Positions 3,686 through 18,158 of a stretch of DNA of 32,967 bases are shown here, piece after piece. Under the pieces are notes generated by a model. That model did not search any database. It was not told where the DNA came from and worked only from the letters and a program-made list of their open reading frames with translations. Made by a program: the position numbers and the translations under genes. Position 1 is the first letter of the stretch, and every line of letters starts with the position of its first letter. The stretch comes from a virus, in the IMG/VR virus record IMGVR_UViG_3300031673_000290, positions 1 through 32,967 of that record; one strand, written 5' to 3'.

Positions 3686-4321
3686 ATGTATAAATATCCT
3701 AAAATAGAGACTCTTTTCAAGAGAGATGAAAATTTCAAAATAACTAATGAGATTCGACTACCTGAATTTGAGAATATCAAACAATGGTTAATTACTGAAA
3801 AGATAGATGGGACTAATATAAGAATCATATTTAATAGGGAAGAAGGTTATCTCGTGTTTAGAGGTAGAACAGATAATGCACAAATGCCAACTTTTTTATA
3901 CGAAGCGTTACTGAAGATGTTTTCGATAGAGAAATTTATAGAAATATTCCCCGATGCCAAAGAAGTTTGTCTCTACGGTGAAGGTTATGGGGCAAGGATA
4001 CAAAAAGGTGGCGGTAACTACAATAAAGGCAATTCGTTTAGGTTATTCGATGTTTGGATTGATGGCTGGTGGTTGGAGTGGGATAGCGTTGAGGAAATTG
4101 CAGGAAAATTGGGGATAGGAACTGTGCCAGTCTGGGGATTAATGTCCCCCGAAACAGCAATAACGTATGTAAAAGGCACACCACATTTTTCATCGATAGC
4201 AGAAGAAGAAAATGGTAAGTTTATAACAGCAGAAGGTATTGTGGCAAGGGCTTATCCAATGCTCTTATTCCGAAATGGCACACCTGTTAAATTTAAGCTA
4301 AAGGTTAAAGATTATGAATAA
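3686..4321 (+). CDS. RNA ligase (nucleotidyltransferase superfamily)
   Basis: 211 residues, starting directly after the preceding stop codon. Motif I, with the lysine that forms the AMP adduct, is EKIDGTN (Lys39). Motif III-like YGEGYGARI, motif IIIa-like FRLFDVWIDGWW, motif IV AEGIVAR and motif V KFKLKVKDY follow in the right order. This matches the Rnl2/DRB0094-type RNA ligase core, short because no large C-terminal domain is present. Such enzymes seal RNA nicks, in phages often tRNAs cut by host defence. The tRNA and tRNA-like RNA at 12253-12434 are plausible but unproven substrates. Confidence 0.85.
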   Translation: MYKYPKIETLFKRDENFKITNEIRLPEFENIKQWLITEKIDGTNIRIIFNREEGYLVFRGRTDNAQMPTFLYEALLKMFSIEKFIEIFPDAKEVCLYGEGYGARIQKGGGNYNKGNSFRLFDVWIDGWWLEWDSVEEIAGKLGIGTVPVWGLMSPETAITYVKGTPHFSSIAEEENGKFITAEGIVARAYPMLLFRNGTPVKFKLKVKDYE

Positions 4322-12359: not shown

Positions 12360-12434
12360 GAGTCGATAGTATTAATGGTAGAACGACTGGCTCCAGACCA
12401 GTAGATGTGGGTTCGATTCCTACTCGATTCGCCA
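12360..12434 (+). tRNA. tRNA-Trp (anticodon CCA)
   Basis: Acceptor GAGTCGA (12360-12366) pairs with TCGATTC (12424-12430), discriminator G, encoded CCA at 12432-12434. The anticodon stem ACTGG/CCAGT holds loop CTCCAGA with anticodon CCA at 12393-12395. T arm GTGGG-TTCGATT-CCTAC is good. The D arm (GTAT ... GAAC around TAATGGTA) is weak, with one mismatch. It reads UGG. It starts 2 nt after the previous RNA's CCA, so both are likely processed from one transcript. Confidence 0.85.
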
Positions 12435-12663: not shown

Positions 12664-12873
12664 ATGGGAATAAAGATAAGTAAGAAAAAATTTGTAGCCT
12701 ATATTAAAAATGAAAAAAAAATATGGGATTTGAAAATTTCTAATTCGGATATAAATAGTTGGTTAGAAATGACTGGATTATCCGAAGAAGAACTTTTTTA
12801 TATTTGGAGACATTATGGGACTCTTACCGTAAAATATATTGGGGATGGTGAATATGGAGAACATCCACAATAG
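12664..12873 (+). CDS. hypothetical protein (69 aa)
   Basis: AAAGGAGATTG sets the ATG at 12664. A basic start (KISKKKFVAYIKNEKK) leads to a compact helical part (WLEMTGLSEEELFYIWRHYG). Not recognised. Confidence 0.6.
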   Translation: MGIKISKKKFVAYIKNEKKIWDLKISNSDINSWLEMTGLSEEELFYIWRHYGTLTVKYIGDGEYGEHPQ

Positions 12874-12967
12874 CTCATCTGCCATGTGTAGAATTAGTAA
12901 GTAAGCACCAAAGGACAGTAAGCTAATGGAAATATATATTATTGATATCTGGCTCGAAATATAATAA

Positions 12968-12989
12968 CGTTTCAGCAAACGTTGAAACG
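12968..12989. repeat. longer GTTTC/GAAAC palindrome
   Basis: CGTTTCA (12968-12974) and TGAAACG (12983-12989), 7-bp arms around GCAAACGT, in the gap before the gene at 13018. Shares the arm core with the dispersed palindrome but has a different loop, so kinship is uncertain. Confidence 0.5.
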
Positions 12990-13017
12990 TCTTATAGAGT
13001 GAAAGTGTTAGAGAAAT

Positions 13018-13560: not shown

Positions 13561-14974
13561 ATGGATCCAAGTAATTATGATTTTATAGCCCAGAAAATAT
13601 AACATCGAGTTTACCGATAAGCAGTTGTTAGCGTTATGGTTGCTTAATCAAGAGTATACCAAAGAATTACTCTATGGCGGAGCTAAGGGTGGTGGCAAAA
13701 GTGTACTCTTGTGTCGGTATGCCTGGTTATATTGTGACATGATTATAGATAAATTTAATCTTCCACCACTAAAGAATCCCATACCAATAGGTTTTATGGG
13801 TAGAATGACGGGTGTAGATTTTGATGACACGACTTTGGAATCATGGAAAATGTTTGTTCCTGAAAATGTTTATACCATCAATTACAAGAATAAAGAAATC
13901 ATTATGAATAAACGTTTAAAAATTCATTATGGCGGACTTGACAGCGAAAAAATAAAGAAGAAATTTAACTCCATGGAAATAGCCTTCTTCTGTCTTGATC
14001 AGGCAGAGGAAATAGAAGAAGATAAATTAACCGAACTTAAACTTGCTTGTAGAAGAACTATCAACGGACAGGCTCTTCCTTATAAATATGTTTATTCAGC
14101 TAATCCAAGAGATTGTTATTTAAAAAAAGCATTTGTTCTAAATAAGAATAAAGACGGAAGAATTTACTTGCCTGCTTTACCATCAGATAATGAATATTTA
14201 CCAAAAGATTATGTAGGAAGAATGGAATATGTTTTAAGGAATAGACCAGCCTTATTGCAGGCTTATAGAGATGGATGTTGGGATGTAATGGCTGGTTCGG
14301 ATCTGGTCGTTCAACTTGCCTGGATTGAAAGAGCTTACGAAACAAGACTCCATAACCCCGTAAGAAAGGTCATTACTTGTGATCCTGCACGTTTTGGAGA
14401 TGATGAAACTGTAATCTATGGTCTAAAAAATACCGATATAGTAGATCATGATATATACGGACAAAGAGATGCAGATTATACCGCTAACCAAATTGAAAAG
14501 ATGGCTCAAAGACTTAGACCTTCTGTAATTGTAATTGATATTATCAATGTAGGTTTGGCTGTAGCTGTTCTTTTAAGACAAAAAATTAAAATGTGGGATT
14601 GGAAATGTCTTCTCGTAGAATTTAACGGTGCTGAAAGACAGAAAGCAGGCGTTCCTGATGCTTTTTATAATAGACGGGCAGAAGCGACATGGCTTGCCGG
14701 AGAAATGTTTGGGGATAATGAAATACAACTAACCTTTAAAGATGAAGAACTTGAAAGAGACCTTAATGCTTATAAGTACGAATTTAAAGGAGACCAGTTA
14801 ATAATCCAACCTAAGAAGGTAATGAAGTTAGCAAAAAATTTAGGTAAATCCCCGGATCATGGAGATGCGTACATAATGGGACTCTGGGCGTTGAGTTATG
14901 CCCGTGAAGAGTACGTAACCAAACATTACTTCAATAAACAAAAGACAAAAAGGCGCAGCTACATGACTGCTTAG
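13561..14974 (+). CDS. terL: terminase large subunit (start disrupted by an apparent +1 frameshift)
   Basis: ATPase and nuclease of the packaging motor. In the frame open from 13589, counting from the TTG at 13625, Walker A is GGAKGGGKS (Lys25), Walker B FFCLDQAEE (Asp125), coupling motif YSANP, then an RNase H-like nuclease with VITCDPARFGDDE, VIVIDIINVG and HGDAYIMG supplying acidic residues. Family N-termini carry an adenine-binding Q motif, here NIEFTDKQ, which lies before the TTG. No usual start codon exists upstream in this frame before a TAG at 13586. The ATG at 13561 starts MDPSNYDFIAQK in another frame and stops at 13600; skipping one A at 13594-13597 joins it to YNIEFTDKQ. So there is either an indel error, a true mutation, or programmed frameshifting. 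Confidence 0.9.
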
Positions 14975-14986
14975 AAACGAACTTGC

Positions 14987-15015
14987 TTGACAAGAAACTC
15001 CTTTTATGCTATACT
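14987..15015 (+). promoter_or_regulatory. sigma70-type promoter of the HNH gene
   Basis: TTGACA (14987-14992), 17-bp spacer, TATACT (15010-15015), near consensus. Transcription should start near 15022, about 15 nt before the ATG, leaving just the AAGGAGG site in the leader. Confidence 0.85.
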
Positions 15016-15036: not shown

Positions 15037-15672
15037 ATGTCTAATAGAAAAAAATATATGAAACAATGGAGAAAGGATAACTCCGAACACATAAAAGAAT
15101 ACGATAAAAAATGGAAAAAAGACAATCTCGAACATAGAAAAGAATATCAGGAGAAGTGGAATAAGGATAATTTAGAACATATAAAAAAGCGTCGGAGACA
15201 ACGGTATTTAAAAGATCGTGAGAAAGAATTAAAACAAGCAAAACAATGGGCTAAAGACAATCCTGAAAGAATAAAAGAAATTCAACAGCAATATTATTAT
15301 TCCAACCATGAAAGAGAAGTAGAACGAGTAAAGCAATATCGTAAAGATCATCTTGAGGAAAGAAAAGAATACGAAAAGCAATATAAGAAAAATCACACTA
15401 AAGAAATAAAACAACGTCGTAATGGAAAATTGCAATATGTTCAAGACTATAAATTATCAAAAGGTTGTCAAATTTGTGGCTATAATAAGAATCCAGGATT
15501 TTTGGGTTTTCATCATCCTAACGATGACAAAGAATTTAATGTTTCGTATGCCTGTGCTCAAGATTTGAGTCTAGAGAAAATCAAAGAAGAAATGGCAAAA
15601 TGTATAATTCTTTGTGCTAATTGTCACACAAAATTACATTGGAAAGCAACAAAGAAAAATAATCTACCTTGA
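15037..15672 (+). CDS. HNH endonuclease with N-terminal 15-residue repeats
   Basis: 211 residues; CGAAGGAGGAA sets the ATG at 15037, downstream of its own promoter. About eight imperfect 15-residue units (for example YDKKWKKDNLEHRKE, YQEKWNKDNLEHIKK, YEKQYKKNHTKEIKQ) fill residues 5-125 as a long basic helix, probably DNA-binding. The C-terminal HNH domain has CQICGYN, FHHPNDDKEFN and CANCHTKLHW: two zinc knuckles, the HH pair and the final histidine. Standing alone with its own promoter between terminase and portal genes, it looks like a free-standing homing endonuclease that inserted here. Confidence 0.85.
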   Translation: MSNRKKYMKQWRKDNSEHIKEYDKKWKKDNLEHRKEYQEKWNKDNLEHIKKRRRQRYLKDREKELKQAKQWAKDNPERIKEIQQQYYYSNHEREVERVKQYRKDHLEERKEYEKQYKKNHTKEIKQRRNGKLQYVQDYKLSKGCQICGYNKNPGFLGFHHPNDDKEFNVSYACAQDLSLEKIKEEMAKCIILCANCHTKLHWKATKKNNLP

Positions 15673-15700: not shown

Positions 15701-15729
15701 TTGACGAGCAAATTTATTCTTGATATACT
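15701..15729 (+). promoter_or_regulatory. sigma70-type promoter
   Basis: TTGACG (15701-15706), 17-bp spacer, TATACT (15724-15729). Expected start near 15736. It would transcribe two small ORFs and the structured RNA up to the terminator at 16294-16337. Confidence 0.85.
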
Positions 15730-15743
15730 ACAAGAGGTGTATT

Positions 15744-15899
15744 ATCGTAACTAAAATTGATAAAACTTTAGAAAAAATAAATAACCAATTAAGACATATA
15801 TTTGAAGAAAATCCTGACTTTACTGGGAATATAACAATGGATTTCTGTCTCGGTGGTTTAACTGGTTTTAAGAAAATAGAAATAGTAATATACAAATAA
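15744..15899 (+). CDS. small protein with no canonical start codon (51 aa)
   Basis: AAGAGGTG at 15732-15739 is followed by ATT ATC GTA ACT AAA; the frame is then open for a balanced protein (KIDKTLEKINNQLRHIF, then GNITMDFCLGGLTGFKK). The only in-frame TTG (15720) lies in the promoter -10 box, upstream of the expected transcript start. Initiation at ATC (15744) or ATT (15741) would be needed, or a start codon has mutated. It resembles small phage proteins of unknown function with a GNI...CLGGxTGF core, by pattern only. Confidence 0.45.
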   Translation: MVTKIDKTLEKINNQLRHIFEENPDFTGNITMDFCLGGLTGFKKIEIVIYK

Positions 15900-15908
15900 G
15901 GGGGAACA

Positions 15909-16028
15909 ATGTATAAAAAGATTTCTCATAAAAGGCTTTTGGAATTTGATGGTTACTATTTAATAATAGATTTATACCAATATATTTCTGTTCCTGATTA
16001 TGGAGAATGGATTACATTTAGTCTTTAA
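15909..16028 (+). CDS. hypothetical small protein (39 aa)
   Basis: AAGGGGG lies 6 nt before the ATG. Begins with a basic segment, then aromatic-rich (FDGYYLIIDLYQYISVPDYG). Too short to classify. It ends 5 nt before the structured RNA. Confidence 0.5.
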   Translation: MYKKISHKRLLEFDGYYLIIDLYQYISVPDYGEWITFSL

Positions 16029-16032
16029 AAGA

Positions 16033-16337
16033 ACCACTCCAACTACGAATGTAGGCAAGGTGGTGATAACGGGTGCTATACCAAGTGTATAGTAACCCTG
16101 TCAGTCCGAGGGTGCTGTTTAAGTCCTAGGCAAACCCTTCATCGATTGCATCGCAGAGGTTTACTCGAAAAACGTTCCACCCCACTAATAAGAGACCCTG
16201 GTCTCTTCGAGAGATAGGTGGGGTGGTCAAAAAGAATAAATAATTAACAGAGACTGCTCAAAAGAAGTTCCTTTAATAGGAAACCACTCTTATGAAGCTC
16301 TAATGACCGAAAAGGTTGTTAGGGCTTCTTTTTTTTT
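16033..16337 (+). ncRNA. candidate structured RNA between terminase and portal genes
   Basis: About 305 nt with no gene and many stable helices: ACCAC/GTGGT (16033-16037/16060-16064) around CTAC/GTAG (16043-16046/16051-16054); GGGT/ACCC with CTATAC/GTATAG (16071-16098); AGGGT/ACCCT (16109-16113/16134-16138); CGAT/ATCG (16143-16153); a 9-bp CCACCCCAC/GTGGGGTGG (16177-16185/16218-16226) enclosing AAGAGACC/GGTCTCTT (16190-16207); TTCCT/AGGAA (16268-16282); and the terminator. With the promoter at 15701 this looks like a dedicated transcript. I do not recognise the class; possibilities include a packaging RNA, a regulatory RNA or a cis-acting leader of the portal operon. Confidence 0.6.
16294..16337 (+). 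terminator. strong intrinsic terminator before the portal gene
   Basis: GAAGCTCTAA (16294-16303) pairs over 10 positions with TTAGGGCTTC (16319-16328); an inner ACC/GGT adds to it; nine T follow. The portal ribosome site GGAGG begins at the very next base, so portal transcription must read through this terminator or be controlled by it. Confidence 0.9.
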
Positions 16338-16346
16338 GGAGGCGTA

Positions 16347-18158
16347 ATGGATAAAACATCTAAAACGAATAGAGAAAGTAAATTAGCCGAATTCTGGCAA
16401 GACGCTAAAAAAGGTCATCGTATATGGCGACAAGAAGCTATCGAGAACTATGAGTTCGTATGCAACAACCAATGGACTCCTCACGAGAGAGCTTTATTGG
16501 CAGAAGAAGAGAAACCCTGTTTGACATTCAATCATATTTTACCTATCGTAAATCTTTTATCTGGAATGGAGAGACAAAATAGAGCTGATGTAAAAGCCTT
16601 TCCAAGAAAAGGTGGAGTAAGGATTATTGCGGATGCCTTTACATCCCTTACGAAACATTCCATTGATTTATGTCATGGTGAAACTGAACAATCCATGCAA
16701 TTCGTGGATGGCATAATATCGGGAAAAGGTTGGTTAAAATCAGACATATCTTACAAGAAAGATAAGAAGAATGGCGATATTGTCGTAACAAGAAGATCCC
16801 CCTTTGATATGTACGGAGATCCCAATGCCGATAAATATGACTTAAATGAATCAGCAAAATACATTGTTGAATGTTACTGGGGAGACAAAGAACAAATCGA
16901 ACTTCTTTGGGATGAACATAAGGAAGATATAGGGAAGTATATATCCGATCCTCAAGATGAAGATATGATGGATCGTACCGGTAAACTTGTAAAGCAATCA
17001 GACAAAGAGGATAGAGATCCTTCATTATACAATTATCGATTAAAAGAGATATGGTGGAAAAGTTATAAAAAACAATTATATCTCATAGATGGAGCTACAA
17101 TGATTTTTACGCCTATCCACGATTCTCAAAAAGACGTAGCAAAAGTAGTTATAGAAAAAGAAACAAGATTGGCTGAAAGTCAAAATAGGCGACCAAGATA
17201 TTCCATTGTAGAACATATAGACGAAGTCTTACACATAAGTACCATGTTGGGAGATATGGAATTAGAACATATTGAAGATCCCTATCATGGAATGACTTTA
17301 TTTCCCATACAAAGATTTTGCCCTTACTGGTTTGACGGGGTTACTTTTGGAGTAGTCGAGGGACTTAAAGATCCACAAAAAGAAATAAATAAAAGATCTT
17401 CTCAGATGCTTCATATTCTTAATCATACAGCCAATACGGGTTGGATTGTTAATGAAAAAGAAGTAAATACTATAGATCTTTTGAAGGAAGAAGGTTCAAA
17501 GCCTGGAGTTATAGTTACATGGATGAACCATGATCCAAAGAAAATTGAACCAAATAGATTTCCTGAAGGACTTTTCATTCTAAAACAAGATGATGAAGCA
17601 AGTATGAAAAAGATTTCAGGTCTTAATCCGGACATTATGGGTCAAGGAGATAAAAGGACTGATTCAGGAATTGCTATCCTGCGAAGACAACGTCAGGGGG
17701 CAACGATTTCTGAACCGGTTTACGATAATTTTAGACTTTCTCAAAGGATTTTTGGAGAAACATTAATTGAAATGATTAGACATTCTCAAGTCTATTCGCC
17801 AGCCGAAGTTGCTCATATAATGCAAGACGAAAAACAAGAAATTGATATTGAACAACTTTATAAGGCAATGAAATCTTGGGCTGTTGGTCATTATGGATAT
17901 AAGGTCGAGCAACAACCGAATATGCCGACTATAAGAATGGCTAATCTAGAAGTGTTAATGAATTTAGCAAATGCCGGTCTTCCCATACCTATAGATGTAA
18001 TAATCGAAAATTCAGATATACCTAATAAAGAAGAAATTGTCCAAAGAGTTCGGGAGGAAGCGCAACGGGTTGCACAAGAAGAACAACAACAACCTGCAAG
18101 ACAGACGAAAGGAAAGGCTTCTCAACCAAAATTACAATCGATGGTTGGGAAAGTATAA
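16347..18158 (+). CDS. portal protein (P22-like)
   Basis: 603 residues, GGAGG before the ATG. Portal dodecamers form the DNA channel at the capsid vertex and dock the terminase. The N-terminus shows the P22-type signature: a NNQWTPHERALL segment, then EEKPCLTFNHILPIVNLLSG and ERQNRADVKAFP. A central stem/wing region and a GLNPDIMGQGDKRTDSGIAI, then RRQRQGA segment follow; the C-terminus is Gln-rich and helical (EEAQRVAQEEQQQPARQ). Length is near P22 gp1 without its long barrel. Directly followed by scaffold and coat genes. Confidence 0.85.
   Translation: MDKTSKTNRESKLAEFWQDAKKGHRIWRQEAIENYEFVCNNQWTPHERALLAEEEKPCLTFNHILPIVNLLSGMERQNRADVKAFPRKGGVRIIADAFTSLTKHSIDLCHGETEQSMQFVDGIISGKGWLKSDISYKKDKKNGDIVVTRRSPFDMYGDPNADKYDLNESAKYIVECYWGDKEQIELLWDEHKEDIGKYISDPQDEDMMDRTGKLVKQSDKEDRDPSLYNYRLKEIWWKSYKKQLYLIDGATMIFTPIHDSQKDVAKVVIEKETRLAESQNRRPRYSIVEHIDEVLHISTMLGDMELEHIEDPYHGMTLFPIQRFCPYWFDGVTFGVVEGLKDPQKEINKRSSQMLHILNHTANTGWIVNEKEVNTIDLLKEEGSKPGVIVTWMNHDPKKIEPNRFPEGLFILKQDDEASMKKISGLNPDIMGQGDKRTDSGIAILRRQRQGATISEPVYDNFRLSQRIFGETLIEMIRHSQVYSPAEVAHIMQDEKQEIDIEQLYKAMKSWAVGHYGYKVEQQPNMPTIRMANLEVLMNLANAGLPIPIDVIIENSDIPNKEEIVQRVREEAQRVAQEEQQQPARQTKGKASQPKLQSMVGKV

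Follow-up and report, generated by a model that had tools for sequence, protein, structure and literature searches.

In the gap that separates terL (13625-14974), the gene for the terminase large subunit, from the P22-like portal gene (16347-18158), this phage carries a moron-like transcription unit, whose small ORFs and mosaic of folded RNA modules lie between a conserved promoter and a conserved terminator. One of these modules, module A, is firmly identified as a DUF3800-associated RNA that has kept its structure in phages with no DUF3800 gene. We propose, at a probability of roughly 0.5, that module A may act as a phage-borne decoy or antitoxin-mimic RNA against a putative DUF3800-type defence. 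Below, "the window" is the whole 32,967-nt stretch analyzed, i.e., the viral record IMGVR_UViG_3300031673_000290.

A structured RNA framed by a promoter and a terminator

Both flanks of the gap are clear, the upstream one matching the PHROG terminase large subunit (8e-21) and the downstream one the Pfam P22-like portal (9.6e-94). An earlier note on this DNA had placed a structured RNA between these two motor genes; terL and the portal gene do flank it, while the HNH endonuclease gene that also lies in the gap (Table 1) had been overlooked. This gene varies among relatives, being present in L025 and L033 and missing from the gap in L002, L006, L008, and L009. A second near-consensus promoter (14987-15015; TTGACA-17-TATACT, extended TG) sits just upstream of it.

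Table 1. Features of the terL-portal gap (window positions) and module-A-like RNAs of locus L015 (positions in L015)
Feature	Positions	Strand	Remarks
HNH endonuclease gene	15037-15672	+	PHROG HNH endonuclease, 1.3e-21; between terL and the RNA unit
Sigma70-type promoter of the RNA unit	15701-15729	+	TTGACG-17-TATACT, extended TG
50-aa small ORF	15747-15899	+	Homologues with 41-98% identity in relatives
39-aa variable ORF	15909-16028	+	Unrelated ORF takes its place in L006
Module B	16033-16140	+	Three predicted hairpins; z -3.1; nearly identical in L006, partly common to L003
Module A, orphan DUF3800-associated three-way-junction RNA	16167-16233	+	16177-16186 pairs with 16217-16226 as outer stem; score of 81.3 bits against model R1, a member's score since the window copy belongs to R1's members
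Conserved 3' element	16249-16293	+	GCTC-NAAAGAAG, hairpin, CTCT; in nine relatives, hairpin covaries
Intrinsic terminator	16294-16337	+	15-bp stem, 5-nt loop, nine T; covarying in relatives
Module-A-like RNAs of L015	2884-3346, 4398-4467, 5420-5489		

The promoter and the two small ORFs that had been claimed are all present. In eight relatives (L002, L003, L006, L008, L009, L020, L025, and L033), the 50-aa ORF family likewise lies downstream of a promoter with a 17-nt spacer; the TTGAC/TATAAT-like pair is kept and the spacer sequences have diverged. We count the promoter at 15701 as real because it is conserved despite these differing spacers. The 50-aa ORF family was found in nine records, matches no Pfam family, and has no standard start codon in its window copy.

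The claim of a highly structured RNA of ~300 nt is borne out by folding. The segment 16020-16345 has a minimum free energy of -112.6 kcal/mol, against -81.8 ± 5.6 for dinucleotide shuffles (z -5.5), and none of 100 shuffles is equally stable. This supports a discrete RNA that has a promoter and a terminator of its own. The search of Rfam that the earlier note had suggested returned no family for the structured region even at E ≤ 5, packaging RNA (pRNA) included, the single weak match falling inside the portal gene; a tRNA scan of the RNA region found none. As for the terminator, described as a 10-bp stem with nine T, the nine T are there and the stem is longer (15 bp). Both the terminator and the hairpin of the 3' element show compensatory changes among relatives. 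The 3' element, which somewhat resembles a boxA-hairpin antitermination site directly before a terminator, repeats GAYTGCTCTRAAGAAG in the window, L020, and L033, each copy being followed by a hairpin. Matches to its pattern in L021-L024, L026, L028, L029, and L031 are apparently due to chance, lying in coding sequence of other phages.

Module A is a covarying RNA related to DUF3800-IX

The first lead to relatives of module A was a BLAST match in Mycobacterium phage Nebkiss (E 3e-6). Copies were then found in Gordonia phages Kenna and Lutum, Corynebacterium phage phi16, further viral contigs, and bacterial genomes. A covariance model (R1) built from 13 copies detected module A in Actinomycetota (6 of 396 genomes), Pseudomonadota (11 of 398), and Corynebacterium (16 of 201), samples that include genomes of model members. 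A Pseudomonadota-type query detected no copy in E. coli genomes, and a match to the module A pattern in L017 proved to be a chance one in coding sequence.

The covariation test that had been proposed for this region gives a strong signal in module A. Using alignments fitted to R1, which hence lean towards the structure although slid controls nonetheless collapse, two-sided changes are seen in 14 of 18 pairs among 29 copies, with 91.9% of cells pairing and no shuffle as high; covariation is similar in a 43-copy alignment. The phage orphan copies alone (n = 11) show two-sided changes in nine pairs (21 cells; 0/500 shuffles). Moreover, 30 of 43 copies share a U-G wobble at one position, and their loops are repeatedly GNRA-like. 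Since wobble pairs are conserved and these loops are recurrent, selection at the RNA level is favored, which points to module A being selected as an RNA rather than as a DNA hairpin.

Module A is best read as a sister of DUF3800-IX (RF02968), the window copy itself being outside the Rfam threshold (no match at the gathering score or at E ≤ 5). This is because Rfam recognizes as DUF3800-IX a convergent copy beside a second DUF3800 gene in L064 (53.4 bits), while the copies in L015 and L057 score just under the RF02968 cutoff. The two families share a three-way junction, the order of stems, similar junction nucleotides, and a convergent location beside DUF3800. L015 copies aligned to the Rfam model display an outer stem, a junction, and two inner hairpins, and the window copy folds alike. 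In contrast to DUF3800-IX, module A has a longer conserved 5' AAA[GC]GTTCCACC and a GAYAAGAG signature, and it occurs as an orphan in phages.

Module A converges on DUF3800 genes

Adjacency to a DUF3800 gene characterizes the module A family, unlike its orphan copy in the window. The first copies examined, bacterial and from Gordonia phage (L012, L015, L016, and L018), all adjoin a DUF3800 gene at its 3' end. All 20 module A-DUF3800 pairs measured are convergent, with the gene ending -6 to +25 nt from the end of the motif, and L082 is an additional convergent case. In the next 15 loci, from two phyla, DUF3800 is found in 10, as a C-terminal fragment in L073. The other five consist of one locus at a contig edge, three weak matches, and L070, where an ORF read as an IS21-type transposase fragment occupies the position expected for DUF3800. 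In Corynebacterium, DUF3800 is next to module A in 6 of 15 new loci; by eye, L091 and L101 contain apparent DUF3800 remnants, and L099 is a prophage-like orphan adjoining tRNA-Trp. Some bacterial copies are also without DUF3800, such as Corynebacterium L100 and L102, whose neighbors resemble, by eye, DUF262-type proteins and, in L102, also PIN-domain proteins. In the gammaproteobacterial locus L015, module-A-like RNAs are clustered in tandem next to a single DUF3800 gene, and weaker copies occur close to lipase genes.

Retron type VII systems use DUF3800 effectors, and the PADLOC model name agrees. DUF3800 has a predicted RNase H fold and is a known neighbor of non-coding RNAs (PMC10910872). 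A PDB sequence search with DUF3800 gave nothing convincing, and in the literature beyond their original description we found no function for the DUF3800-associated RNAs listed in Rfam. We infer that DUF3800 and its RNA form a putative defence or toxin-antitoxin pair.

Phage copies of module A without DUF3800

A DUF3800 gene is absent from the window, L003, L006, L014, L025, L081, L083, L084, L085, L087, Nebkiss, and phi16, most of these phage records being fragments, with Nebkiss and phi16 complete genomes; L006 belongs to the window family and has no module A. The orphans occur in two settings. In the window family and L014, they are part of promoter-terminator units, and the L084 copy begins just past a promoter-like sequence at the contig end. 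In Nebkiss, phi16, L087, and L085, they lie in tRNA arrays; phi16 has two copies, the motif stopping where tRNA-Asn or tRNA-Arg begins, and RNase P is predicted to release these copies from the tRNA precursors. A stretch of 58 nt in the Nebkiss orphan is identical to the L018 copy, which is linked to DUF3800, and the flanks of the two are unrelated.

The L014 unit consists of a consensus promoter (TTGACA-18-TATAAT), an abiF motif, module A, and a terminator, the abiF motif scoring 35.9 bits (E 3.8e-7), just under the Rfam cutoff of 37 bits. It is reminiscent of abiF RNA (RF03085/RCd22), which binds the toxin AbiF directly and neutralizes it in trans (PMC12373285), since an abiF-like motif and module A are coupled in one unit. 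Unlike abiF RNA, no Abi_2 gene was found in L014 or the window-family records searched, and the window has no abiF motif.

Other RNA-related genes were seen in these phages. L003 carries an 89-nt tmRNA-like gene (1649-1737; 53.7 bits, above the Rfam cutoff), in which the tRNA-like ends are kept and the tag-coding part is replaced by only ~29 nt. The window encodes an RNA ligase (3686-4321; PF09414, 4.6e-20) and a tRNA-Trp (12360-12434), as expected of a phage confronting RNA-cleaving defences.

A possible RNA decoy

Phage module A as a decoy is suggested, short of proof, by the fact that the phage carries the RNA without a DUF3800 gene. The host DUF3800 protein would be a nuclease effector held or guided by its RNA. 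An infecting phage would make its own copy of module A, which would bind the host protein and keep it inactive or load it with a useless partner, so that the defence would fail. The remaining RNA modules might be analogous putative baits for other RNA-dependent effectors. This reading draws on two precedents, abiF RNA (PMC12373285) and pseudo-ToxI (PMC3475682), a mimic of a type III antitoxin by which phage TE evades ToxIN. As in phage TE, a phage-borne RNA resembles the RNA partner of a bacterial protein and the gene for the protein is missing; however, the RNA family and the protein are different, suppression by the window RNA is a prediction, and the tandem repeats of type III toxin-antitoxin RNAs are not seen, as the window has a single copy of module A.

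We count in favor of the decoy the convergent pairing, the covariation including that of orphans, the 58-nt identity between Nebkiss and L018, the occupied and empty sites described below, and the L014 parallel. Against it, we count the bacterial copies without DUF3800 (L100 and L102), the sub-cutoff abiF match, and the mostly fragmentary phage records.

The same orphans could have the opposite effect. Phage module A might be a cofactor that arms DUF3800 from the host or a co-resident prophage, e.g., to exclude competing phages, which would fit with the RNA and DUF3800 being carried together in some phages and viral contigs (Kenna and L082). We consider this unlikely, since orphan copies sit in records without any DUF3800 and would have to rely on a host gene that is carried with its RNA by only a minority of the genomes sampled.

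The scattered distribution of copies, their tandem arrangement in L015, the empty and occupied sites, and the 58-nt identity across unrelated flanks would also be compatible with a mobile or selfish element, in which DUF3800 would treat the hairpin as a transposase treats its ends, the phage copies being non-autonomous insertions. The conserved wobble (30/43 copies) and the GNRA-like loops favor RNA-level selection instead, while phage copies are in sense orientation within transcribed units or directly 5' of tRNAs, and inspection by eye showed no insertion flanks in common. This origin therefore appears rather improbable.

The slot upstream of the portal gene is a mosaic cargo site

Homologous terL-portal gaps were gathered by portal, TerL, and 3'-element searches. 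While the 50-aa ORF and the 3' element with its terminator are kept in every relative compared, RNA modules are not. Module A is carried by the window, L003, and L025; module B by the window, L006, and L003; module C by L003 and L009; module D by L006; and module E by L008. There is no RNA module in L020, L027, L033, and L034, so that L025 represents an occupied site, and L033 and L020 empty ones. Because the slot just 5' of the portal gene is empty or holds different RNA modules in relatives, it is a site of mosaic cargo. Searches for modules B, C, and D in phages, plasmids, 398 Pseudomonadota, and IMG/VR, the collections covered varying with the module, returned only the same phage group or chance matches, such as L080 for the module B pattern. 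In addition, the stretch 12867-13017 of the window, which is possibly a second RNA cargo site, contains a 23-nt near match (22 of 23) to the start of the L008 module E, directly after another small ORF and followed by further predicted hairpin sequence.

This variability bears on whether the RNA controls portal gene expression as a leader or attenuator, with the modules incidental; a portal leader had also been considered in the earlier note. In favor of such a role, the ribosome-binding site of the portal gene comes right after the terminator, and the relatives compared have all kept the 3' element. Nevertheless, modules A to E differ or are missing beside the same portal, and module A occurs in unrelated contexts, which makes such a role doubtful for the unit as a whole and possible for the 3' element only. 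Finally, the suggested analogy with phi29 packaging RNA, based on a structured phage RNA lying by the motor genes (terL and portal), is rejected as very improbable, since the RNA has no pRNA match in sequence, structure, or Rfam, the modules are replaced by others or missing in relatives with the same motor genes and thus no constant part of the locus, the motor consists of a TerL terminase and a P22-like portal, and module A lies at a distance from the packaging genes of other phages and next to DUF3800 in bacteria.

Returning to the decoy, that orphan copies are under selection in several phages of unrelated kinds suggests that phage and host are in conflict over module A. More tentatively, at a little below even odds, such promoter-terminator units, placed at fixed positions within structural operons or within tRNA arrays, may be dedicated RNA anti-defence islands with exchangeable baits. 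On the same tentative footing, these baits may be RNA partners of DUF3800, AbiF, and other putative effectors (modules B to E), which are gained, lost, and recombined. If true, exchangeable non-coding RNAs would be a phage counter to RNA-dependent defence, and unknown modules in such sites would offer a route to unknown RNA-guided or RNA-inhibited defence systems.
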